64,000 bases of DNA from Spirochaetia bacterium (GTDB lineage Bacteria > Spirochaetota > Spirochaetia > Sphaerochaetales > Sphaerochaetaceae). Location of the stretch: assembly GCA_022482625.1 (NCBI GenBank), contig JAKVOU010000001.1, positions 1,598,784 to 1,662,783 on the forward strand. The letters run 5' to 3'. Shown here piece by piece: positions 1-40,164 of the stretch. Position 1 is the stretch's first letter; each line of letters begins with the position of its first letter. The position numbers were made by a program, and so were the translations under genes. The notes under the pieces were generated by a model that was not told the DNA's origin, did not search any database, and saw nothing but the letters and a program-made list of their open reading frames with translations.

Positions 1-1000
1 TAGCAGCATTATAAAGAAGATGGCACTCAGGGTGTCCGGGAGTACCGAAATAAGCCTGCAACTCATTCGGAGCCATAACGACTTCACCTTTCAGGATCGT
101 AGCAGGACAGACACTCTCCATCAGCAGACGTATCATCCGTATCAGCATATGCGCTTCAGGTAAATTCCTGCATTTTGCCCAGAGTTTTTCCATATATAAG
201 GAACGGAATCCAATCGAAAAATCTCACAACCCCAATTTGCAAGATACAGCATACTGCATACAATTTCATTGGAAAAAGAGGGATTCGCATAGTCAAGGTC
301 CTATTGGAACGGATAAAACGAAGTAAGGACCCACTGATTGATCTCATCACACCAAGTAAAATTACCAGGAGCTGTAGAGGGAAACACCTGAAGAACCATC
401 GCATCATAGACATCGGGTATGGTCCTGTCCGGGAAAAAGTGTAAAAACCCATTGCCTTGCGGTTTCCTTTTTTTGCAGCCATAGCCCAAGGATGTGTACT
501 TGCCATATGATTCATGACAAAATCCATGCAAAGGGAAATCCCGTTTTCACGCAATGCGGCTGTAAGATCGGCCAAGTCAGATACAGTTCCAAAACACGGG
601 TCAATGGATTTGAAATCATCCACCGCATAGCCACCGTCGTTGTCAGGATGCGGCATCCTGAGCATAGGCATAAGATGCAAATAAGTGATACAAAGTTTCT
701 TCAGATAAGGAATTTTTTCCCTGAGCCCTGCAAGGTCGCCTGCAAACAAATCTGTATACAAGGTAAGACCGGGCATTTTTGGATCAAGATACCATAACGG
801 AGCAGCAAGCCGTTGCCGGTCAAGGGCCCGACGCTCCCCAGATATGCTTGCCTGGCTATTGACTTCAGCTCCTGGAACTTTGCCTCATCAGGGTATAGTC
901 CCATATAAAGCGCATCAAGCTCCGGCTCTTTTTTGGCAATTTCTGCACAAACTCCATATTCTGCTCCTATCGAAGGCAACTGTATCCTCACACAATGATA
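1..1000 (-). pseudogene. decayed amylosucrase-type GH13 enzyme, 3' end beyond window
   Basis: Amylosucrases (GH13) move glucose from sucrose to alpha-glucan. Reading the minus strand across three frames gives a continuous family match: a piece containing LDALYMGLYPDEAKF, then ALDRQRLAAPLWYLDPKM running into the TYLHLMPML and NDGGYAVDDFKSIDP motifs, then PDRTIPDVYDAMVLQVFP and GNFTWCDEINQWVLTSF, then LDYANPSF, RLDSVPYIWKNSG and finally AHMLIRMIRL through GHPECHLLYNAA. The frame changes near 830, near 440 and near 165, and an in-frame TAG near 298 stands where the family has the Trp of QWDLNYANP. With at least four lesions a single sequencing error cannot explain it. It lies directly downstream of the sulfatase on the same strand, so it was probably the last gene of that operon. 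The true N-terminus is unclear. Confidence 0.85.
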
Positions 1001-1120
1001 CAGCCCCCCCCCGACAATGATGATTCCAGGTATCAGGAACTGCGTCAAGAAAAACAAATCAAAAATCCTGATACTTTTGCTGACAATCAGCCTTCAACAA
1101 AGAGCAAACATCCAAGCAAT

Positions 1121-2584
1121 CTATATACCAAGCCTCTGGTACTGTTCCGAAGGAGCATCATCTTCTTCCATCAGTCTGCGCATCAGTTTCAGCATCCGCT
1201 GCTCTACGGCAGAGTCTTTGATCGGATGTTCCTGCTTCGGATCGGTGACCAAGTCATATAGGACGGTCCCGGCATTGTCAGACAAGGCCAAGTCTGCTTT
1301 TCCTGACAAAGTGCTGCAGGATATTTCCATGACTGGACATTCCTTGGTAAAGGAAAACGGCTCATGCCATTTCATTGTCTTCATCTCATCTACAGAGAAC
1401 ATGGACCGCATATGGGTAGGCATGAGCGTATAGTTGTTCAAAGGAGCATTGTCCTTGCCGAAACCCCGCATATAGACATATCGCCCATCCGTTACATTTA
1501 CCTGTCCGCCATGCATACCGAAAAGACAGGCTTCACGTACAGGGATATCAGTGGCTATGGTAGTTGCAAGATCCTTGCCCTCCATATCCTTCGGTACATT
1601 GATCCCAAAGAAATTCAACAAGGTCGGTGCAATATCTACGGAAGACTGGACCAAAGCCTTTCTCCTTTCCCCTTTTCTGCCAGATCTGGGATCCCAGACA
1701 AAGAAAGGAATATGCGCTACTTCATCATAGAAAGGATGGACACATTTTGCCCAGCAGTCATGTTCCCCAAGCAGGAAACCATGGTCGGTATTCACAATGA
1801 GCATCGTATCCTTCCACATGTCGTATCGGTCCATGTAGTCAATGATCTTGCCTAAATTGGCATCACACATGCTGAGCAAGGCTGCATACTCATACCTGAC
1901 ATGCCTGACCGCATCCTCGGGTTCATCGACTTTCTTGTAATCAGGCCAGTCAAACTGAGGACCGTCATAATGATGAGGATACAGCTTCTTATAGGCATCC
2001 ATCGTATAGTATGGTTCATGAGGATCAAATGCTTCAATCTGCAGGAACCAGTTGTCCTGGTCCCGGTTGGTATCAAGGAATTCAAGTCCATCCCTGAAAC
2101 AACGGGTCTGAGACTGTTTGTCTTCACAGTCCATTACCTGTCGGTTGATTATATCCTGCCGCCAGACACGTCCGTAATGGTCAGGGACAGCAGGATCCTT
2201 GACCTGAGCCTTCCAAGGATCTCCCTCCTGCCCCCTTTCTCCTTCCCATGAACTATATCTGGTATGGTAGGTACATCCTCCGTCTTCCCAGTAGTGGGCA
2301 TGGTCTGAGATAAGATGCGAATATACTCCATGGCTTTTCAGCAATTCAGGCAGGGAATCATCATAAGGTTCCATCGGCCCCCATGAACGATGCAGGAAGT
2401 TATATCTGCCGGTGTGCATTTCCCGCCTTGCCGGCATACAGGGAAGACTACCCGCATAGCAGTTGTCAAAAGTCACTGCCTTTTCTGCCAACCGAAGAAA
2501 ATTCGGAGTCTTTGTCCAATCGCAGCCATACGGTTGCAACATACCTCTGTTCAGGCTATCGAACATTACCATTATTGCTTTCAT
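1121..2584 (-). CDS. cytoplasmic Cys-type sulfatase
   Basis: A 487-residue sulfatase of the alkaline phosphatase superfamily that should hydrolyse a sulfate ester. The signature CMPARREMHTG (Cys49) fits C-x-P-x-R-x4-T-G, whose Cys is oxidised to formylglycine by the maturase encoded just upstream. Metal-ligand regions are visible as MFDS near residue 9 and NTDHGF in the middle. There is no signal peptide: the protein begins MKAIMVMFDS, directly in the first core strand. It is clearly paralogous to the divergent sulfatase at 5147-6616, sharing for example AGSLPC, TGRYNFLHRSW and RGQEGD. The gene follows the maturase by about 60 bp and probably shares its transcript. The substrate is unknown; the neighbouring sugar-type regulator and carboxylate transporter suggest a small sulfated sugar acid, which is inference. 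Confidence 0.93.
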   Translation of the reverse strand: MKAIMVMFDSLNRGMLQPYGCDWTKTPNFLRLAEKAVTFDNCYAGSLPCMPARREMHTGRYNFLHRSWGPMEPYDDSLPELLKSHGVYSHLISDHAHYWEDGGCTYHTRYSSWEGERGQEGDPWKAQVKDPAVPDHYGRVWRQDIINRQVMDCEDKQSQTRCFRDGLEFLDTNRDQDNWFLQIEAFDPHEPYYTMDAYKKLYPHHYDGPQFDWPDYKKVDEPEDAVRHVRYEYAALLSMCDANLGKIIDYMDRYDMWKDTMLIVNTDHGFLLGEHDCWAKCVHPFYDEVAHIPFFVWDPRSGRKGERRKALVQSSVDIAPTLLNFFGINVPKDMEGKDLATTIATDIPVREACLFGMHGGQVNVTDGRYVYMRGFGKDNAPLNNYTLMPTHMRSMFSVDEMKTMKWHEPFSFTKECPVMEISCSTLSGKADLALSDNAGTVLYDLVTDPKQEHPIKDSAVEQRMLKLMRRLMEEDDAPSEQYQRLGI

Positions 2585-2647
2585 GTATCATCCTCTCTCC
2601 TTTTGTACTGCAGATATGGACAATCACGTCCGATGCTGCAACAAAAG

Positions 2648-3754
2648 TCATTGTTTTCTTTTTCTCTCATCTGCTACGGATTCTGCCAAAGCCCTGAATC
2701 TATCAAGCCTGTTGTCAAAAAGGTACTTGTAGCTTGTACAGAACCTGAAATGTCCGTCATCGTCCCGATACCTCCTGCAACCACCCCGGCACAGCCCTGC
2801 ATAGGGACAGGTCCGACATTCATCTGCGGTATTGATAGAAGCTTCAATATATCTGATGTCCCTCCGTTTTCGGTCAATTTCCTCAATCGTGTCGGATTCG
2901 ATGTTTCCCAGCCTATAGGCATCAAGACAGTAGAAATCACAGGGAAACACATCCCCATTGCCCTCGATCACATACTGGATCGAACAATGCCCCCTCATAT
3001 CACAGGCCTCCGGTTCATAGCCGAGCAATATGCCAAGGAAATTATCAAACAACCTGTTATAGATTGGATATCCGCCATAGACGGCACTTTCCCATAGGTC
3101 GTAGAGCCGTACCAAAAAACGTCCATAGTTCTCGGAAGTAAGATATCTGTCGGTAGCACCTGAAATCGGATCAATACAAGGTATGTACTGCTGATAATAC
3201 AAACCGTTGCTCATGAAAAAATCCCACATCCGGTCTATATTTCTGACTGTTACATCAGTTACTACAGTCAGTATATTGAAATCGGTACCGGCTTCGCGAA
3301 GAGCCTTGAGCCCGTCCATTACCTCATGGAAACTACCCGTCCCATCTACCTTGGTCCTGCAAGTATTGTGCAACCGTGAAAATCCATCCAATGAAACTCC
3401 CACCAGATATCCTTTCTCTTTAAAAAACACAGCCCATTGGTTATCTATATTGGTTCCGTTCGTCTGAAAGGAAAATCTGGCTTGTACCTTGCCACCGTTG
3501 TACTTGGCTTCCAGTTCATGGAATTTCCTGAACCAATCAAGTCCGACAAGGGAAGGCTCACCTCCCTGGAAAGCGAAATCAACAGTATCATAGGCTGCAT
3601 AAAGCCTGCTGATAAGCTTTTCTGCGAGTGCAATAGTAAGGAACGGATATTTCCGTACCGTCCTATTTGCAGTTTCATCCAGATAGAAACAATAGGAACA
3701 TCGCAGGTTGCAGGCAGAAGAAGCAGGTTTAATCAATACTGAACAGCTTTTCAT
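2648..3754 (-). CDS. anaerobic sulfatase-maturating radical SAM enzyme (anSME)
   Basis: A 368-residue radical SAM/SPASM protein that converts the active-site Cys (or Ser) of sulfatases to formylglycine without oxygen. The N-terminus reads KPASSACNLRCSYCFYLDE, with the CxxxCxxC cluster that binds the S-adenosylmethionine 4Fe-4S centre. The C-terminal SPASM region carries further Cys at CDMRGHCS, FPCDFYC and CRTCPYAGLCRGGC for two auxiliary clusters. Size and motif order match the anSME family. It sits between the LacI regulator (33 bp upstream) and a Cys-type sulfatase, which is the expected client, and can also serve the divergent sulfatase. Oxygen-independent maturation indicates an anaerobic lifestyle. 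Confidence 0.94.
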   Translation of the reverse strand: MKSCSVLIKPASSACNLRCSYCFYLDETANRTVRKYPFLTIALAEKLISRLYAAYDTVDFAFQGGEPSLVGLDWFRKFHELEAKYNGGKVQARFSFQTNGTNIDNQWAVFFKEKGYLVGVSLDGFSRLHNTCRTKVDGTGSFHEVMDGLKALREAGTDFNILTVVTDVTVRNIDRMWDFFMSNGLYYQQYIPCIDPISGATDRYLTSENYGRFLVRLYDLWESAVYGGYPIYNRLFDNFLGILLGYEPEACDMRGHCSIQYVIEGNGDVFPCDFYCLDAYRLGNIESDTIEEIDRKRRDIRYIEASINTADECRTCPYAGLCRGGCRRYRDDDGHFRFCTSYKYLFDNRLDRFRALAESVADERKRKQ

Positions 3755-3787
3755 GGCATCTCTCTTATTTTCGGCAAAAGCCTTTTT

Positions 3788-4837
3788 TCATAAGGTTAAC
3801 TCATTTTCGAAATCTTCTACATTCTCCTTGAGCAAAATTTCTGATTTACTGAAAAAATTTGAGTTACGTTTTATGGAACCATTGATCAGGTGTTCCGCCA
3901 TGACCTTCATGACAAATGTTCCCTGGAAAAAATCTTTCTCAACTACGGCAGCCTGGACCAAACCTTCCTTGAACCCTTTCTTGGTCATTTCGTTCATGCC
4001 GGTAGTAACCACCATCAGCCTCCGTTTTTTTTCTGCTTCAAGGACGGCCTGAAGCCCACCTTGCGTAGCTGAAGTAGCATAAATGACGGTATTGATAGCC
4101 GGATATGCATCCAAGCATTGCTTTACAGACAAGTAGGAATGAATCTCATCATTCGGAAGCTCCGAAACCACCCCTATCGTATTGTTTTTATTTTCATGCA
4201 ACCTTTGCAACATGTAATCTAATTTTACATCATTGCTCAGCATCGTCTTGTTAGGAATAAAAATTGCAATGTCCTTTTTGCTGCAGCCAAGTAAATCAAC
4301 GACAGCTCCAGAAAGCAGTCCTGCTTTCTTATAATCCCTGCCTACATAAGCAAGGTAATTCGTATGTTCAAGCATTGAAGTCAACAGAATCACAGGAAAC
4401 TGCTGCTCATACAATTCATTGATCCTGTTTCTGATCTTGTCACTGTTAATCGGAATAATGATGATACCGTCACAATGCTCTTCAACGGCCTGGTCCAGCA
4501 ATGCGAGCTGACGGTCACTGTCATAGTCAGGGCATTGCCTGATCGAGACCTCTATGCCGGATTCCTTCAGTTCTTTCTCAGCCGCATTGATGCCTTTTAC
4601 AAGATTGGAAACGACATAATTATCCATGACATGGAGTATGACGGCAATCTTTCTTGTCCTTTTCCTTGCAGACAGAGAAATAGCAAGGCTATTGGGCTGG
4701 TAGTCCAATTCTCTGGTTATCCGCCGAATCTTCTCAGATACTTCAGTTCCGATCCTACCTTTGTTATTGAGAACCTTGCTCACAGTTCCTACGGAGACCC
4801 CGGCCAATTCCGCTATTTCCTTTAACGTAACGCTCAT
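3788..4837 (-). CDS. LacI-family transcriptional regulator of the sulfatase locus
   Basis: A 349-residue regulator with an N-terminal LacI helix-turn-helix (VTLKEIAELAGVSVGTVSKV, residues about 3-22), a hinge region (YQPNSLAISL) and a periplasmic-binding-protein-like sensor domain resembling those for pentoses or ribose. It is the first gene of the minus-strand operon with the maturase and sulfatase and diverges from the second sulfatase and Tct transporter. Two AAACGGTTT sites in the divergent region, one at its own promoter and one just downstream of the other promoter, are the likely operators, implying autoregulation and control of both arms. The inducer is unknown, probably the imported sulfated compound or its product. 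Confidence 0.92.
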   Translation of the reverse strand: MSVTLKEIAELAGVSVGTVSKVLNNKGRIGTEVSEKIRRITRELDYQPNSLAISLSARKRTRKIAVILHVMDNYVVSNLVKGINAAEKELKESGIEVSIRQCPDYDSDRQLALLDQAVEEHCDGIIIIPINSDKIRNRINELYEQQFPVILLTSMLEHTNYLAYVGRDYKKAGLLSGAVVDLLGCSKKDIAIFIPNKTMLSNDVKLDYMLQRLHENKNNTIGVVSELPNDEIHSYLSVKQCLDAYPAINTVIYATSATQGGLQAVLEAEKKRRLMVVTTGMNEMTKKGFKEGLVQAAVVEKDFFQGTFVMKVMAEHLINGSIKRNSNFFSKSEILLKENVEDFENELTL

Positions 4838-4854
4838 ATTCCAACCTCATGAAT

Positions 4855-4883
4855 ATAATACCACGGTTATTTTCTAAAGTAAA
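4855..4883 (-). promoter_or_regulatory. predicted promoter of the lacI-maturase-sulfatase operon
   Basis: On the minus strand TTTACT (4878-4883) and TATTAT (4855-4860) are separated by 17 bp. Transcription would begin about 10 bases before the regulator ATG at 4837. The -35 box overlaps the first AAACGGTTT site, which fits autorepression. Prediction from consensus only. Confidence 0.45.
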
Positions 4884-4889
4884 CGGTTT
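4881..4889. promoter_or_regulatory. candidate LacI-family operator 1
   Basis: AAACGGTTT is an odd-length palindrome (AAAC-G-GTTT) of the LacI-operator type. It is repeated 157 bp away with the same flank (AAACGGTTTCT). It lies at the -35 region of the regulator's own predicted promoter. Confidence 0.5.
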
Positions 4890-4994
4890 CTTTTTTTTTA
4901 ATTTAAACAAAGTATTAAATAATATTAGCTACCATGTAAATATTATTAATAATTACCTGAACTACCCGAAATTAAAAATTTTAAAAAATTTAAG

Positions 4995-5023
4995 TTGACA
5001 AATATAGATTCTCATTTTAGAAT
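4995..5023 (+). promoter_or_regulatory. predicted promoter of the sulfatase 2-tctCBA operon
   Basis: TTGACA (4995-5000) is followed after exactly 17 bp by TAGAAT (5018-5023), a near-consensus housekeeping sigma promoter. The start point would be near 5030, leaving a leader of about 115 bases before the sulfatase ATG. Confidence 0.65.
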
Positions 5024-5037
5024 TTTTCATGTTGGGA

Positions 5038-5046
5038 AAACGGTTT
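5038..5046. promoter_or_regulatory. candidate LacI-family operator 2
   Basis: Second copy of AAACGGTTT (shared block AAACGGTTTCT), placed about 8-16 bases after the predicted start point of the plus-strand operon. That position suits a repressor roadblock. Confidence 0.55.
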
Positions 5047-5146
5047 CTCAAATGTCTTTCTCCCATATTATCTGCCACAACTGACGCAAACCTATTCGGC
5101 AGCAGATCAAAACAAAATGGACAATGTCCAGCAAAAGGATACAATC

Positions 5147-6616
5147 ATGAAAGCAGTACTCATCATGTATGATTCACTGAACAAACGATATCTCCCACCA
5201 TACGGAAATAACAAAGTCGTCTGTCCGAATTTCACCCGTCTTGCGCAGTGTTGCAATACCTACGATAATTTCTATGCGGGAAGCCTTCCCTGCATACCTG
5301 CCAGACGAGAGATTCATACGGGTCGGTATAACTTCCTGCACAGGAGCTGGTCTCCAGGAGAACCGTTTGATGAATCAATGCCGGAATTGCTCAGCCAAGC
5401 AGGCATCTACACCCATTTGATCACTGATCACTGCCATTATTGGGAAAACGGAGGATTGAACTACAATACTCGGTTCACCACACACGAATACATCCGTGGA
5501 CAGGAAGGTGATGCGTGGGCCGGTACTGCAAAGGATTTTACAGGCAACAAATATGGCAAACGTCAGGATAGCTTCAACAGATTGCTGGAAGCAGAAGAAA
5601 AGGATCATTCACATGTCCGTTGCTTTGAAAAGGGACGTCAGTTTCTCTACGACAACAAGGACAATGACAATTGGTTCCTGCAATTGGAATATTTCGATCC
5701 ACATGAGCCCTTCTTTGCCCCAGACCGTTTCAAGAAGCTCTACACTGACAGCCCGAATCAAGTAGACTGGCCGGAATACAGGGTATATACCGAAGCTGAA
5801 CAGGATATGGTAGACAGTTTCCAGACAAATTATAGTGCCGTCGTTTCCATGTGTGACGAGTACCTTGGCAAAATCCTGGATGTATTCGATGAACTTGACC
5901 TATGGAAGGACACCTTGCTTATCATCAATACTGACCATGGCTTCATGTTGGGAGAAAAGGGATTCGTCGGAAAGAACTACATGCCTGTCTTCGATGATAT
6001 TGCAAATCTGCCCTTCTTCATGTATGTACCCGGCGAAGAAAAGGGAAAACGGAGAAAATCCCTCTGTCAGACCATTGATATAGCCCCGACGCTCCTGGAT
6101 TGGTTCGGCATGCAGAAAGGAAAGCATATGCTCGGAAAATCCCTGCTGGAAACAAACAAAAATGACAGAAGCGTACATGAATGCATCCTCTACGGGTATT
6201 TCGGGATGCATGTGAATATCACTGACGGGAAGTATACGTACCATAGATGTGCAAAGACCAAGGACAACACTCCGCTGTTCCAATACACATTGGAACCTGC
6301 ACATATAAAGAAATTCATGTCCAAGGAAGAAATCAAGCAGGCAGATATGCACCTGCATGATGAATTTACATGGACCGACCATGTTCCGGTCATGAAGATA
6401 CCTGTCGACGAACGGTATGACCGTAAGAAATATTACACATACAGCAACCATGCCAAATACGGTGACTTGTTGTTTGACAGAGTCAATGACCCTGAACAAC
6501 TGACACCTCTGCATGATGAGCAGATCGAGCAGCATTTCACTGCCAAAATGGTCAGTCTTATGAAAGAGAATGAAGCCCCTGAAGAACAGTATGTTCGTCT
6601 TGGACTGCAAAAGTAG
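5147..6616 (+). CDS. second cytoplasmic Cys-type sulfatase
   Basis: A 489-residue sulfatase paralogous to the one at 1121-2584. The start at 5147 is chosen over an upstream ATG at 5117 because AAAGGA lies seven bases before it and the protein then starts MKAVLIMYDS, aligned with its paralogue. The signature CIPARREIHTG (Cys49) marks a formylglycine enzyme dependent on the nearby maturase, and NTDHGFMLGE carries metal ligands. No signal peptide is present, so it acts in the cytoplasm. It heads a plus-strand operon with a tripartite tricarboxylate transporter, which argues that the transporter imports the sulfated substrate. The substrate itself cannot be read from the sequence. Confidence 0.93.
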   Translation: MKAVLIMYDSLNKRYLPPYGNNKVVCPNFTRLAQCCNTYDNFYAGSLPCIPARREIHTGRYNFLHRSWSPGEPFDESMPELLSQAGIYTHLITDHCHYWENGGLNYNTRFTTHEYIRGQEGDAWAGTAKDFTGNKYGKRQDSFNRLLEAEEKDHSHVRCFEKGRQFLYDNKDNDNWFLQLEYFDPHEPFFAPDRFKKLYTDSPNQVDWPEYRVYTEAEQDMVDSFQTNYSAVVSMCDEYLGKILDVFDELDLWKDTLLIINTDHGFMLGEKGFVGKNYMPVFDDIANLPFFMYVPGEEKGKRRKSLCQTIDIAPTLLDWFGMQKGKHMLGKSLLETNKNDRSVHECILYGYFGMHVNITDGKYTYHRCAKTKDNTPLFQYTLEPAHIKKFMSKEEIKQADMHLHDEFTWTDHVPVMKIPVDERYDRKKYYTYSNHAKYGDLLFDRVNDPEQLTPLHDEQIEQHFTAKMVSLMKENEAPEEQYVRLGLQK

Positions 6617-16626: not shown

Positions 16627-18150
16627 TCAGCATTTGCCGTAGGGACATCCTTCAGGAAAATGCCATGTGCTATTCTTGCAGAAGGCACATGGTCCATTTG
16701 TCCGCTGCAGATGCCCGCTAGGTGAGTCAATGACAAGGGTGCCCTTACGATATTCATCACTCAGCGCATCGGCAATAAGTCCATAAGGGTCGTAAAAACG
16801 GGAAATCAAAATCTGCCATGCGGCACAGCCTAGTTTGCTTTCAATCGGGTCATCTTTCCTGATACCTATCGGTACCATATCGTTCCGTGTCACCTGGCCT
16901 ATTCTGCCTCCTGATTCAAGGACTTGCGCATCACAGGGAAATTCAGTACAAAATCCTTTCCATGCATCGCGGGAAAACCTGGCATGAGGCACAAAATTCT
17001 CAGCATAGGAAAAATGCGGAGTAACGATTACCCGAGCACGGTACGAAACATCGCCATTTTCGTATATAAAATAGTGGCAACGAAGACACGTTTCCTTCAA
17101 CAAATCATATACATCACGATTCTCTGCAGAAAATGTAAGATGCCCTCCTTTATCTGCAAAGCTTTGGGTAAACATCTCCAAAGCACTGGTACTGACAAGC
17201 AGCAGGACCGCAGGACGGCTCTGCAGCAACTGGCGCAATACGTAGTCTTTTTCTCCGACACACCGGGCCGCAATGGAAGAACGGGGAATATCATATTTGT
17301 CACTCCATCCAGGAGAAGCACAACCGACCATATCGTACATGCTTATATCTTCACCAATCGAAAAGTCAGGAGCCGTGTCGGGCAAACCAAAACGTCGCTT
17401 GCATTCAGCCAGTACAGGAAGCAGACGCAGGTAGTATCCAGACCCCGTCACATAGACAGGAACTCCGGCCTTCGGTTTGCTCTGTATTTTTGCAGCAAGT
17501 ACCGTTCCTTTACTGAATGCAGGCGTACCACTTTCAACAATATCCTCACGGCTGACAGCAGTAAGGACAACAGCCCTCATGCCGGGTTCCCATGTCATTT
17601 CATAATATACAGGCGTTTTTTCTCCCACATATCGGACAGTAAGGCAAAGCCAACGATGATCAGTACCTCGTTCCACGGCAACAAGCCATCCATCCGACCG
17701 GGCTTTCAGTTCTGTTCCCTCTACGATCCACGAATGGATGGTCCCCTCATCAAGACATTCCTGAAAAACACTGGCATGGCGATAATAATAGGCATAGTTT
17801 GCAGCCCTTGCAAAAGAAGGATAGCATCGGACAGCCCCACCGGGACCCGCAAAATACGCTCCAAGGTTCGGGTTGATGCCCAGTGTCATGATAGGAGCTT
17901 TCCTGCATCCCTTGAGCACGGCAGGTTCCGGCAACCTGTCGCCTACGGCATCTGCCTCCGTCCACTTTACAGGAGTCGTTTCAGAAGAAGATGGTTGCGA
18001 ACAGCACAGGCCTTTCGGCAGCAACCCTTTCCAGTCAATTGCCGGATAAGGCCCATAAGGCGGTATACCTCCCCAAAACCATGGGCAGTCATTGCATTTC
18101 TTTACCTCATTGACCAATGACACTTCCACAGGCAATGTTTTCTGTTTCAT
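16627..18150 (-). CDS. uncharacterised Cys-rich protein with uracil-DNA-glycosylase-like motifs
   Basis: A 507-residue protein starting at ATG 18150 (GGAGG five bases upstream); I do not recognise the whole protein. Three segments recall the uracil-DNA glycosylase superfamily in order: LGINPNLGAYFAGPGG near residue 98 (compare the GINPGL...FAGPGN motif of mismatch glycosylases), PAVLLLVSTSALEMF, and RVIVTPHFSYAENFVPHARF in the position of the second catalytic loop. Cys clusters flank it: CNDCPW at the start and CAFCKNSTWHFPEGCPYGKC at the very C-terminus, fit for a metal or Fe-S site. It is more than twice the normal glycosylase length, with a long insertion between the motifs. The family link is an inference from motifs only. 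Confidence 0.6.
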   Translation of the reverse strand: MKQKTLPVEVSLVNEVKKCNDCPWFWGGIPPYGPYPAIDWKGLLPKGLCCSQPSSSETTPVKWTEADAVGDRLPEPAVLKGCRKAPIMTLGINPNLGAYFAGPGGAVRCYPSFARAANYAYYYRHASVFQECLDEGTIHSWIVEGTELKARSDGWLVAVERGTDHRWLCLTVRYVGEKTPVYYEMTWEPGMRAVVLTAVSREDIVESGTPAFSKGTVLAAKIQSKPKAGVPVYVTGSGYYLRLLPVLAECKRRFGLPDTAPDFSIGEDISMYDMVGCASPGWSDKYDIPRSSIAARCVGEKDYVLRQLLQSRPAVLLLVSTSALEMFTQSFADKGGHLTFSAENRDVYDLLKETCLRCHYFIYENGDVSYRARVIVTPHFSYAENFVPHARFSRDAWKGFCTEFPCDAQVLESGGRIGQVTRNDMVPIGIRKDDPIESKLGCAAWQILISRFYDPYGLIADALSDEYRKGTLVIDSPSGHLQRTNGPCAFCKNSTWHFPEGCPYGKC

Positions 18151-18198
18151 CGTAGCCTCCGACAAATAAGTATACCATACCATATCATCTGATGGCAT

Positions 18199-18425: not shown

Positions 18426-18612
18426 AAGAATAATAGATTTTTAGTAGGAATGGTAAAAAAACAGGTTCGATTCCTGTTCCTATAATAGAAATGCGATGGT
18501 TAGGATCAGTGAGTGCACAAAGGTGGCCACTGAGACAGCAGTTCCGAAACATCCATAAAGTTGGCAACTCGTTTTAGCCTCATTGGAGAGCAAAGTGGGT
18601 TGCCTTTTTTTT
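18426..18612 (+). ncRNA. candidate structured non-coding RNA with a tRNA-like minihelix
   Basis: No protein is read here, but a GC-richer stretch stands out of very AT-rich flanks and is bracketed by a promoter and an intrinsic terminator. Near its 5' end, stem ACAGG/CCTGT encloses the seven-base loop TTCGATT exactly as in a tRNA T-arm, and TCCTA follows at once and can pair with TAGGA upstream, stacking into an acceptor/T-arm-like minihelix; the D and anticodon arms are missing. A second stem, TCAGTG/CACTGA, is seen in the middle. It is not a complete tRNA, tmRNA, SRP RNA or RNase P RNA. Its closeness to a defence gene pair may be meaningful or chance. Confidence 0.4.
18563..18612 (+). terminator. 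intrinsic terminator of the candidate RNA
   Basis: GGCAACTC (18563-18570) pairs with GGGTTGCC (18597-18604) over eight positions, one a G-U pair, and is followed by eight T residues (18605-18612). Confidence 0.7.
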
Positions 18613-18805
18613 GTGCAAGCAAAAAGTTCTTGAAAATTAAAGGTTACCTATAGACTCCAATGAATTTTCTCTGAAAAAGTTTTTTTTAGAACATAACACA
18701 ACTTTTAACCAGTCTTAAATCGCTTGCAGACTTTCCTTTCTACGTCTAAAGAATTTCTGTCTCTGATTCAAAATTTTGCTTGACAAGCAAAAAATATAAA
18801 TCCTA
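18613..18805. other. AT-rich spacer
   Basis: No gene is seen. A hairpin TTTTGCTT/AAGCAAAA near 18772-18793 lies just before the inverted-repeat element. Confidence 0.4.
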
Positions 18806-19089
18806 GAGTTTTTTGCAAAACTTGAAACTGATTGAACATAGTTCCTGAAGCATAGCGAAAGGCAAGAAAAAAACACATAACCAAAATGCCAAGGACAGAA
18901 AGGAATGGACAGGAGCAAACCACCTGGGCAGATATCCATCAGACGTGTGTGCACAGACTTATACAAACAACGGAAGCAACATGATGATACGGTCCGTTTT
19001 CATCCCTTTGCAGGTGTTCGGTATGCCTCCTGTATATATGTACTGTCCATGACTATTCATTCAGACATCCGTAAGTTTTGCAAAGCCTC
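18806..19089 (+). mobile_element. MITE-like inverted-repeat element, copy 1
   Basis: A 284-bp non-coding element whose ends match those of the element inside the protease gene at 21302-21546, in the opposite orientation. The left end reads GAGTTTTTTGCAAAA then CTTGAAACTGATTG; the right end reads ATTCAGACATCC then TTTTGCAAAGCCTC. The flanking four bases (CCTA and ATCA) do not match, so this copy looks older or has lost its target duplication. No transposase is encoded. The middle bears no clear similarity to copy 2. Confidence 0.7.
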
Positions 19090-19238: not shown

Positions 19239-20354
19239 ATGATTGACGAAAAAGAATTAATCTATAAATATTTAGTCGATATTTCCCGATTTGCTATAGC
19301 TGGTGACATAGAGAATTCAAGATTATATATTGCCCGTACATCAAGAAAACTTCGGAACATTTTTCCAAACTTATCAAAACAGCTGGCAACATTGTTAAGT
19401 AACTCAAAAAATGATTCTATACTTCGTCATGTCGCTTCTACAAAAGACGTAAGACAAAACAATTTAAACGAAAATTCATTATCGTCTTTTATATCAGGTC
19501 CAATCAATTGCACCACAGCAGAAAGGCCAATACTCCAAGCTGGCTTACAAGGAATTTTTCAACGAATTATTTTAGAACGACAATCTATTGCCAAACTATC
19601 AAAATCAGGATTAAAACCAACAAGTACATTATTTTTTATTGGAAAACCAGGAGTAGGAAAAACACTTTCTGCATACTGGTTAGCAAAAATTCTTAATCTT
19701 CCGTTATATAAAATCGATCTTGCAACAGTAGTTGGCAGCTATCTTGGTCAAACAGGTAATAATCTGAAAGCCGCATTGGCTTTCGCCCAAGAACAACCAA
19801 TGGTTCTTCTTCTTGATGAAATCGACGCCTTAGCGAAAAAAAGAAATGATGACTTTGATATCGGAGAAATCAAACGAATTGTTACCGTATTGTTACAAGA
19901 AATTGATAGCTGGCCAACAACAAGTATCCTTGTTGCGGCAACAAACAATCCAGAACTTGTTGATCCTGCCCTATGGCGTCGATTTGATGAAGTTCTTGAA
20001 TTTCCATTACCAGATAAAGAACAAACAGAAGAAGCAATCATACGTTTTTTAGGCAAAAATTATGGACCATTCCAAAACTATAAAGAAATCTTTACTATTC
20101 TATTTCAAAAACAATCTTTTGCCGATATTGAAAACCAGATTTTAAAGCTTCGGCGCACCTTTATTGTTGAAAATTTTTCCGTTGAAGAAATAATGGCAAA
20201 CTTTATTAAAAATAATCTTGAAAAACATAATCGGATTGAAATGGCTAAAGTTTTGTTACGTAATGGGAAATTTTCTCAAATAAAAATAAGCAAAATAACA
20301 GGCGTTAGTCGTGATACAATTCGAAAATATAAAAATCAATTATTGCTCGAATAG
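19239..20354 (+). CDS. ietA: AAA ATPase of an IetAS-type defence pair
   Basis: A 371-residue AAA ATPase. Walker A IGKPGVGKT is at residues about 134-142, Walker B VLLLDEID at about 190, sensor 1 with the arginine finger region at AATNNPELVDPALWRRFDEV. The last 30 residues (SQIKISKITGVSRDTIRKYK) look like a helix-turn-helix. ATG at 19239 is preferred to an upstream TTG. Ten bases after its stop begins a subtilase, the gene pair known as ietAS, in which ATPase and protease together protect against phage. Codon use and base composition are markedly AT-rich compared with the chromosome around it, suggesting transfer. The ATPase itself is intact. Confidence 0.85.
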   Translation: MIDEKELIYKYLVDISRFAIAGDIENSRLYIARTSRKLRNIFPNLSKQLATLLSNSKNDSILRHVASTKDVRQNNLNENSLSSFISGPINCTTAERPILQAGLQGIFQRIILERQSIAKLSKSGLKPTSTLFFIGKPGVGKTLSAYWLAKILNLPLYKIDLATVVGSYLGQTGNNLKAALAFAQEQPMVLLLDEIDALAKKRNDDFDIGEIKRIVTVLLQEIDSWPTTSILVAATNNPELVDPALWRRFDEVLEFPLPDKEQTEEAIIRFLGKNYGPFQNYKEIFTILFQKQSFADIENQILKLRRTFIVENFSVEEIMANFIKNNLEKHNRIEMAKVLLRNGKFSQIKISKITGVSRDTIRKYKNQLLLE

Positions 20355-20363
20355 GAGGGTTTA

Positions 20364-22847
20364 ATGGGAAAACGTCACTTTATCCTTGGTAAAGGAGAAT
20401 TACTTACTTCTCCAATCAAAATCAAGCATAATTATCCAAACAAAAAAGCTTATCCATATACTTTTGAAGAATCACTTGCCCAATTAAATTCAAAATTTGT
20501 CACAATAGCAAACAATGTCGACAAGCTTCCAGCCCTTGCATGCCCAGCAGACTATGCTGTCGAAACTATAACGTTGAACCCTGCTTTCATTGCACGTTCT
20601 TACTATCCCTCTGCTTTATTCGAAAAATTAAATGTAATTCCCATAGGCAGTCGCAACATTAGTATCGTACCTCGTAAATGGAATAGGAAAATTGTTCCTA
20701 AAAAAACAACAACATCCCAGTTATTTATAGCAGGAAAACGTAAAATCCTTCGTAATATTCCTCATATCACCGAGCAATTAGATCCCAATAGTATAGAGGC
20801 GCTTGATTTTTCAAAAATTGAAGATGTGGGACTACACAACCCAATTCTTGATTCCGTAAAAGAAATAAAACAAGAAAACATATCTATGTTTTTTGAGATT
20901 GCATTGCAGCTTATTCCCTTTGATTCCCAAGCTCGTATAATTATGAATTCTTTTTGGGACTTTTCACATAACCTTTCCATTGAATGTTTACAAGATTACT
21001 CTTTTAAATCTGGCAATCTTTTATTTGTTCCTGTCCGTGGAACAAAGTTGGAAATAATGCAACTTTCTAAATTTTCGTTCATTAGAGTAATTCGGCTTAT
21101 GCCTAAAATCAGAGATATTCCCTCTTCGACTACAAGGGTTAGCCTTCCTGCTATCAAAGTTTCATTACCTTCTGTTAAGCAACCAATTTCCGACACTATT
21201 CATGTTGCAATCATGGATGGTGGATTACCACAAGATAATCCGATAAAGCCATGGCTTTACCGCTATTTAAAAGGAGATGAAAATGCAAAAGATATTATAG
21301 AGAGGTTTTTGCAAAATTCACGGATGCCTGAATAAATATTCACGGATGATGCATATCCATGCAGAAGCCAGGCCTGACGGCTGCAGGAGATGGGAACCGG
21401 CCGCATCACGTAGCCCTTATGGCCTGCCGCAGGCCTGCGCGCACACGCAGGACGGACGCCCTTCCGGACACAGGCCGGGAATCCTGCTGAGAAAACTGCA
21501 TATTTATGCACACTGACCAATCAGTTTCGAGTTTTGCAAAAACCTCTAGAATACAATAATCATGGCTTGGAAGTTTCTTCAGCATTCTTATTTGGCCCGA
21601 TATCTCCAGGAAATGCAATAATGTCACCCTATGCTCCGATTACACATATTCGCATACTGGATAAACTTAGCAACAATGAAAGTCCTCTTGTCTCATATCG
21701 AACATTAGGAATGATCCAAGATGTATTGCTATCAAGACAATATGAATTTGTCAACTTAAGCATTGGACCTGATTTACCAATCGATGATCATGAAATTCAT
21801 GCATGGACTTCTGTTATTGATGATGCACTTGCAAATGGAAAAACATTCATGACAATTGCTGTAGGAAACAATGGAGAAGCTGACAGATCATCAGGAAATG
21901 CAAGAATTGAAGTCCCATCAGATTGCGTAAATGCCGTATCCGTTGGAGCGTCAGACTCAACTGATAGCAAATGGAAAAAGGCTTCATATAGTGCAATAGG
22001 ACCAGGAAGGCAACCTGGTATCGTTAAACCAGATTTAGTTGCTTTCGGAGGATCTCCTCAAGAATATTTTCATACTCTCACAAAGGGACAAGTACCTATA
22101 ATTGTACCTCAGATGGGTACTAGTTTTGCAGCTCCACTCTTGTTGAGGACTGCTGTTGGTATCCGAGCTTATCTCGGAAATGAGTTTTCCGTTCTTGCAA
22201 TCAAAGCATTGTTAATTGATAGTGCTGAACGTAATGGAAATGACCGGATTGATGTTGGATGGGGAAGAATCCCTGATAATCTTCTATCCCTTATCACTTG
22301 CGGAGATGGTACATCAAGAATTGTTTACCAAGGAGAACTAATAGCAGGAAAATATTTACGGGTACATATACCTCTACCCAAACAACTGCAAGGAATGATT
22401 TCTCTAAAAGCTACTATCTGTTATACTACAGAAATTGACCCAGAAAATTCCGATGCATATACAGAAGCAGGAATCGAAGTAACTTTTCGTCCAGATAAAA
22501 CAAAGAATGAAGATGGAAAACAAGCTACATCAAAAAGCTTTTTCTCAAAAAAAATTTTCGCAACAGAAAAAGAACTAAGAAATGATGCCGGAAAATGGGA
22601 AACTGTTCTGAAAGGAAAAAGGAAGTTCAGGGCAAGTTCTCTCAAAGAACCGTGCTTTGATATTCATTATAATGCAAGAGAAAATGGTATGACTACTTCA
22701 AAGAAAAACAGACTTCACTATGCACTTATTATTACTATCCAAGCTACTAAAACAACAAATATAACAGAAAAAATCATGGAATCCTATCCAGAACTAGTAC
22801 CAATAATACCGAAGTCTACTATACCTGCTACAAAAATTAGGATTTAA
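20364..22847 (+). pseudogene. ietS: subtilisin-like protease of the IetAS-type pair, split by a 245-bp element
   Basis: The first part (20364-21335) has an N-terminal domain of about 270 residues and the catalytic Asp at HVAIMDGGLP (Asp285). The reading then enters an inserted element and ends at TAA. After the element the frame resumes with NNHGLEVSSAF (catalytic His), AVGNNGE (oxyanion Asn) and QMGTSFAAPL (catalytic Ser). Removing 21302-21546 plus one copy of TAGA (249 bp, a multiple of three) joins KDII to EYNNHG and gives an uninterrupted 744-residue subtilase with Asp285, His317 and Ser504. There is no signal peptide, as expected for the cytoplasmic IetS type. AGGAGGG precedes the ATG. 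As it stands the protease should be inactive. Confidence 0.92.
21302..21546 (-). mobile_element. MITE-like inverted-repeat element, copy 2, inside ietS
   Basis: A 245-bp element bounded by perfect 15-bp terminal inverted repeats, GAGGTTTTTGCAAAA (21302-21316) and TTTTGCAAAAACCTC (21532-21546), and flanked by the 4-bp target duplication TAGA (21298-21301 and 21547-21550). It is inverted relative to copy 1. Inside, the core is conspicuously GC-rich with small hairpins such as GGCCTGCCGCAGGCC, quite unlike the AT-rich gene it interrupts. No transposase is encoded, so it would move with an enzyme supplied elsewhere. The clean duplication and perfect ends point to a recent insertion. Confidence 0.9.
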
Positions 22848-39276: not shown

Positions 39277-40164
39277 ATGTACGATTTCAACAATTTATAT
39301 GAACCAAAGGATATCCGGGAAGCACTCCAAATGAAGATGGAATATCCGAATGCACTTATTCTGGCAGGAGGCAGTGATATACTGATCAAGATCAGGAGTG
39401 GCAGACTGGCAGGATGTGACCTGATCAACATCTATGGCCTGGAAGAACTGCGAGGTATCTGCATGGAAGACGACGGTACCATCCTCATACGCCCCTTGAC
39501 CAGTTTTTCTCATGTAACGGCACATCCTCTCATCAAGCAGTACATACCGACATTGGGAGAAGCAGTTGATCAAATAGGAGGTCCCCAGATACGGAATATC
39601 GGTACAATAGGAGGCAATATCTGCAATGGAGTTACTTCTGCTGATTCAGCATCTACGCTTAAGGCTTTTGATGCCATGCTTGAACTTTCCAGCATCAACG
39701 GTGTACGGATCTTGCCTTATGCAGAATTCAGCCTCGGCCCTGGAAAAGTTGATCTCAGGGAGGGAGAACTGCTGACAGGCATCAGGATTACAAAAGACAG
39801 TTATGAAAATACGTATGGGCAATACTTGAAATACTCAATGAGAAAGGCCATGGACATTGCTACCCTTGGCTGTAGCGTCAATGTCCGACTGACGAAAGAC
39901 AAAAAGGCAATCGACAGACTACGGATCGGTTTTGGCGTTGCAGCTCCTACCCCCATCAGGGCAACTACTGCCGAAACAGCAGGCAATGGACACGTACTGG
40001 ATAGCAGCCTGCTTGATCTCGTTGCAGGAAAAGCCTGCGAAGACGTAAATCCCAGGACCTCATGGCGTGCATCCAAAGAATTCAGGATGCATCTGATCAA
40101 GGAACTGGCAAAACGGGCTTTGAAGACTTCAATCGAAAAGGCAGGAGGAAAAATCGATGGCTAA
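39277..40164 (+). CDS. xanthine dehydrogenase-type hydroxylase, FAD-binding subunit
   Basis: A 295-residue FAD subunit. ALILAGGSDILIKIRSG and QIRNIGTIGGNICNGVTSAD are the FAD-binding signatures of the CO-dehydrogenase/xanthine-dehydrogenase medium chain. It starts 12 bp after the large subunit and overlaps the Fe-S subunit by 8 bp. Passes electrons from the clusters to NAD or another acceptor. Confidence 0.93.
   Translation: MYDFNNLYEPKDIREALQMKMEYPNALILAGGSDILIKIRSGRLAGCDLINIYGLEELRGICMEDDGTILIRPLTSFSHVTAHPLIKQYIPTLGEAVDQIGGPQIRNIGTIGGNICNGVTSADSASTLKAFDAMLELSSINGVRILPYAEFSLGPGKVDLREGELLTGIRITKDSYENTYGQYLKYSMRKAMDIATLGCSVNVRLTKDKKAIDRLRIGFGVAAPTPIRATTAETAGNGHVLDSSLLDLVAGKACEDVNPRTSWRASKEFRMHLIKELAKRALKTSIEKAGGKIDG

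Follow-up and report, generated by a model that had tools for sequence, protein, structure and literature searches.

Organization of the ietA–ietS-like locus

The window, a 64-kb stretch of DNA, contains an AAA ATPase gene followed directly by a subtilase gene, the second of which is interrupted by a short mobile element. The features referred to throughout the text are listed below.

18806-19089, minus strand: older relative of the element, now decayed, a short way upstream of ietA; both insertion sequence (IS) ends align
19239-20354, plus strand: ietA-like AAA ATPase gene, 371 aa, intact (PADLOC IetA, E = 1.9e-72; Pfam AAA, E = 5e-29; translation)
20364-21301, plus strand: ietS-like gene, 5' part, with catalytic Asp285; covers codons 1-312 in full and codon 313 up to its second base (PADLOC IetS, E = 6.9e-9)
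21298-21301, no strand: left copy of the target duplication TAGA, 4 bp
21302-21546, no strand: MITE-like element, 245 bp, an internal-deletion derivative of a 1,621-bp IS1182-like IS (end alignments and base-by-base comparison)
21547-21550, no strand: right copy of the target duplication TAGA, 4 bp
21551-22847, plus strand: 3' part of the ietS-like gene, with catalytic His317 and Ser504 (Pfam Peptidase_S8, E = 2e-16; PADLOC IetS, E = 3.5e-30)

The translated ATPase carries a Walker A motif (GKPGVGKT) and a Walker B motif (LLLDEID). The ietS-like gene starts 10 bp past the ietA stop codon and is preceded by a good ribosome-binding sequence. An AAA ATPase gene directly upstream of an S8 subtilase gene is the arrangement of IetAS, a toxin-antitoxin/anti-phage pair represented by ietA/ietS of pTiC58, sgiA/sgiT of SGI1 and the PADLOC IetA and IetS profiles, both of which are matched here; gene order, length and catalytic residues are likewise common to the window pair. 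Unlike IetAS, the window pair has an interrupted protease, with the complete Asp/His/Ser triad found only in the joined frame and not on a single polypeptide, and it is more divergent. Since its scores fall far under the cut-offs of the NCBIfam equivalog models (NF042959 and NF042956; 199.9 against 510 and 74.7 against 900 bits), we treat the pair as a divergent relative and refer to it as IetAS-like. The 5' part of the subtilase gene is 35–41% identical at the protein level to the N-terminal parts of intact homologues, and its open frame continues into the element up to a stop at 21333-21335. The 3' part, at most 58% identical to intact homologues, is open from a TTG codon within the element (21534). 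Judged from sequence, the interrupted subtilase gene is an IetS descendant and presumably now a pseudogene.

A 245-bp element separates the catalytic Asp from the catalytic His

The insertion site falls within the region encoding the catalytic domain, after the codon for the catalytic Asp and before that for His. The element ends, GAGGTTTTTGCAAAA and TTTTGCAAAAACCTC, form perfect inverted repeats over their outer 15 bases, and the exact end motif occurs at just these two ends within the 64-kb window. Element and one copy of the duplication together amount to 249 bp (245 + 4), or 83 codons, and a straight read-through stays in register. Along the way, the upstream frame meets three stops, all within the element (21333, 21375 and 21411), and no other before 22845. 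Because these in-frame stops fall between Asp and His, no complete protease would be made. When the flanks are joined without the 249 bp, the resulting frame comprises 744 codons with no internal stop and contains D285, H317 and S504. The original prediction of a 245-bp element, with 15-bp ends that match perfectly and TAGA as its duplicated target, was thus borne out at 21302-21546, and the joined translation confirmed its further claim that removing 249 bp restores a 744-residue frame with an Asp285/His317/Ser504 triad. The evidence strongly supports the view that a mobile element has inactivated the predicted IetS-like protease.

Homologues read through the junction

We compared the joined frame with homologues at 106 loci from genomes and viral contigs, gathered by a search that favoured loci with an intact 3' half; an alignment-based scan of genome contigs gave 80 loci. 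By the cut-off of the script used, a single open frame runs across the junction in 100 of the 106 homologues. Two of the remaining six merely reach the normal C-terminal stop, and the other four (L072, L107, L162 and L169) are damaged in their N-terminal parts by frameshifts, a stop or an insertion of 4.3 kb, in no case at the junction point. A split at the same point was found in none of the 106. The original prediction had been staked on homologues that align continuously here and do not share the split, and the 100 loci that read through the junction agree with it. All 101 sequences (the joined frame and the 100 intact homologues) share Asp285, His317, Ser504 and the oxyanion Asn419, and the Asp–His spacing of the joined frame, 32, is also that of 82 of the 100 intact homologues, the other 18 having a spacing of 31.

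Both fragments match adjoining parts of the same plasmid genes. On NZ_CP115843, a plasmid of Agrobacterium, the match to the N-terminal fragment stops at record base 39743 and that to the C-terminal fragment begins at 39759; the intervening 5 codons correspond to the 5 residues that separate these positions in the joined frame. As read from these alignments, the two fragments are one gene cut in two. No ortholog with an empty site was found in three genus mates and other genomes of the family, which hold only ~30% identical relatives, and relatives in viral contigs and phages were only 58% identical or less. Since no close relative offers an empty site, the insertion is deduced from homologues whose protein identity is no higher than 58%.

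The element derives from a resident insertion sequence

Bases 1-166 of the element are 95% identical to the left end of an IS, and bases 158-245 are 98–99% identical to its right end. These two matches have 9 bases in common, because a near-repeat (CCCTCCCGG / CCCTTCCGG) occurs at both edges of the deletion. The parent IS measures 1,621 bp and is present in this genome in ten copies with both ends, seven of them with the same sequence throughout their 1,621 bp, a further two diverged and the last truncated to 1,043 bp. The seven base-identical copies imply recent IS activity. Perfect flanking duplications of 4 bp accompany every one of the ten copies, and duplications of 5 bp accompany none. 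Given this consistency across the complete parent copies (10/10), together with 34 matches of the element in this genome, the insertion is not a chance arrangement.

The parent IS encodes a 379-aa DDE transposase (Pfam DDE_Tnp_1). In this it resembles IS1182-family insertion sequences, which are also the nearest annotated relatives of the transposase, if distant ones. The IS1182 family model scores best for the protein, yet reaches only 75.5 bits against an NCBIfam cut-off of 270; because of this score and a best identity of 33% in a plasmid collection, where the top matches are annotated as IS1182, we call the parent IS1182-like only. The element is a non-autonomous deletion derivative of this resident IS that has lost the transposase. 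Like MITEs derived from insertion sequences, it is short, lacks a transposase gene, retains the ends of a full-length, autonomous IS found in this genome and is flanked by a target duplication of the same length. Unlike them, the deletion form is single-copy, with one intact copy in the genome. The short form is absent from 138 other genomes of the family, among which one genome contains merely two brief partial matches, and the element has no match in viral contigs. With a single intact copy, it does not constitute an amplified MITE family, and single deletion derivative is the stricter name.

The older relative at 18806-19089 aligns with the right IS end at 34 of 44 bases and with the left end at 135 matches in ~200 columns. 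It is an independent deletion derivative and has no matching target duplication.

Age of the insertion

The element is identical to none of the current full IS copies. It shares several variants with the diverged copies and carries ~4 bases found in no other copy, and was therefore not made from the seven identical copies. These private bases may have arisen before or after insertion and give no sharp date. Both half-genes of the ietS-like gene are stop-free. In a neutral-decay estimate, which took 0.031 as the transition-weighted fraction of random changes that create a stop, stop-free halves are unsurprising at 1–2% divergence and unlikely only near 5% (P = 0.03), a result compatible with up to about 3–5% neutral divergence since insertion. 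The insertion had been predicted to be recent; the clean ends and stop-free half-genes agree with this, as a loose bound that extends to about 3–5% divergence.

Origin and neighbourhood of the pair

The iet genes have a GC content of 33–37%, compared with 44% for the window and 39–51% for neighbouring genes. Their closest relatives are overwhelmingly proteobacterial, with identities that reach 58% in the C-terminal part, and full-length relatives at 50–58% identity were found only outside a 393-genome sample of the phylum, in which none is better than ~30%. Horizontal acquisition of the pair is the natural reading, since the genes are AT-rich and their closest relatives proteobacterial, those from the same family and phylum being only ~30% identical. 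The genome also holds a second, uninterrupted IetAS-like pair (L178; G000 C1:478000-487000, positions 2902-6177, about 480.9-484.2 kb of C1), which comprises a 744-aa S8 protease and a 346-aa AAA ATPase and is about 28–36% identical to the window pair.

Upstream of the pair, the segment at 18461-18613 is ~72–76% identical in genus mates, with a tRNA T-arm-like start and a terminator-like T run at its end. Its equivalent begins inside a tRNA-Met gene in two genus mates and just downstream of one in the third. Here, just the T-arm-like part is left, and ARAGORN calls no tRNA. A search of Rfam gave no match for the segment even at an E value of 1, and it is possibly an unlisted small RNA. Its conservation beside tRNA-Met in the genus mates had suggested an island bounded by a tRNA-Met copy. 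We rejected this because the fragment does not have the sequence of the intact tRNA-Met gene 28 kb upstream, and because its 17-base core occurs only once in the genome. A 523-aa open frame beside the iet pair (16627-18198, minus strand) has no Pfam or NCBIfam match. On Agrobacterium and Komagataeibacter plasmids (L053 and L054), a gene for a caspase-family protein on the opposite strand adjoins the ietAS pair upstream of ietA.

Probable decay of the pair and alternative explanations

In the sgiAT pair of SGI1, to which the pTiC58 pair is the closest relative, the protease is the toxin and the ATPase the antitoxin, and relatives of IetS are toxic when the antitoxin is absent (PMC5006074). The account that we consider highly probable as a whole is that a horizontally acquired IetAS-like operon, encoding an AAA ATPase and a subtilase, was struck by the non-autonomous derivative of the resident IS1182-like IS. 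The transposase for this move, which made the 4-bp TAGA duplication, would have come in trans from a full copy, and protease function would have been lost with ietA untouched. This account builds on direct observations, namely the anatomy of the insertion, its parentage and target duplication, the homologues that are intact across the junction and the invariant triad. Because relatives of IetS are toxins restrained by the ATPase, a pair that has lost the protease but retains the ATPase is in the state that one would expect to be tolerated, while the opposite order, with the ATPase lost first, would be harmful. If loss of the protease alone is tolerated, an ordinary, irreversible one-way decay of the pair, and not a switch, is most likely.

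Each frame is open, and a 3' fragment could start at the in-frame TTG that the element contributes at 21534, so that the two fragments might be translated side by side and join into a protease that is active or has a regulatory role. We regard such a functional split as very improbable, because the cut parts Asp from His within the catalytic domain and no Shine-Dalgarno-like sequence is evident before the TTG. The homologues point the same way, as the few broken ones among the 106 owe their damage to unrelated events (frameshifts, a stop or IS insertions). A reversible switch is equally hard to credit. It would involve frequent precise excision, helped by the resident transposase or through replication slippage, and would restore the protease in part of the population, so that IetAS would serve as a bet-hedging, phase-variable defence that toggles. 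The perfect ends and duplication, the exactly rejoining ietS-like frame and the seven identical parent copies, which suggest that an active transposase is present, fit such a scheme, but perfect ends and a rejoining frame are those of any clean IS insertion and are no indication of excision. A 4-bp direct repeat such as TAGA is short for slippage, and DDE elements of this type usually leave the donor site unrestored. The one genome carries one allele, in which no excised form, empty site or excision mechanism was found, the much decayed relative persists at 18806-19089, and the word "excision" is absent from a paper on IS insertions into defence genes (PMC10359306). The original prediction that the lineage is switching the system off, possibly reversibly, therefore holds well for inactivation, while neither switching nor reversibility has positive evidence in the form of an empty or excised allele.

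That the protease is costly, and that selection therefore favours insertions which destroy it, repeatedly in different bacteria, is a more serious possibility, if still an unlikely one. In its favour, IetS relatives are toxic without the antitoxin (PMC5006074), and other copies are broken: the ietS homologue L052 on the Enterobacter hormaechei plasmid NZ_CP077309.1 (1818-5296) is interrupted by ISEc52, ~4.3 kb is inserted in the N-terminal part of the homologue at L169 (IMGVR_UViG_651053066_000003, 28-6227), and frameshifts or a stop affect the copies at L072, L162 and L107 and probably a Klebsiella plasmid copy. In its annotation, the L052 gene appears as two entries, a hypothetical protein and an S8 peptidase, and the L169 insert holds IS3-type and IS21-type (IstA/IstB-like) genes. 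Against selection for loss, broken ietS genes number 4 of 106 and broken ietA genes 1 of ~100 at the same loci, frequencies that are low and not clearly different, and ietS is twice the length of ietA. Some of the breaks are possibly assembly errors, and the search favoured intact 3' halves.

Relation to known insertions in defence genes

Insertions of MITEs and IS elements in cas genes, and of IS elements in other defence genes, are documented (PMC10359306). As in those cases, a defence gene here appears to have been disabled by an IS resident in the genome, or by a non-autonomous form of it, the difference being that the gene struck is ietS; the locus is a clean example of an already known kind of gene inactivation. 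Because both halves of the gene still match the IetS profile, defence finders that score profiles could count the broken system as present. The locus would amount to a natural, clean knock-out of an IetS-like protease that leaves the partner ATPase intact, and to a useful case for the decay of toxin-like defence pairs and the disarming of defences by resident insertion sequences.
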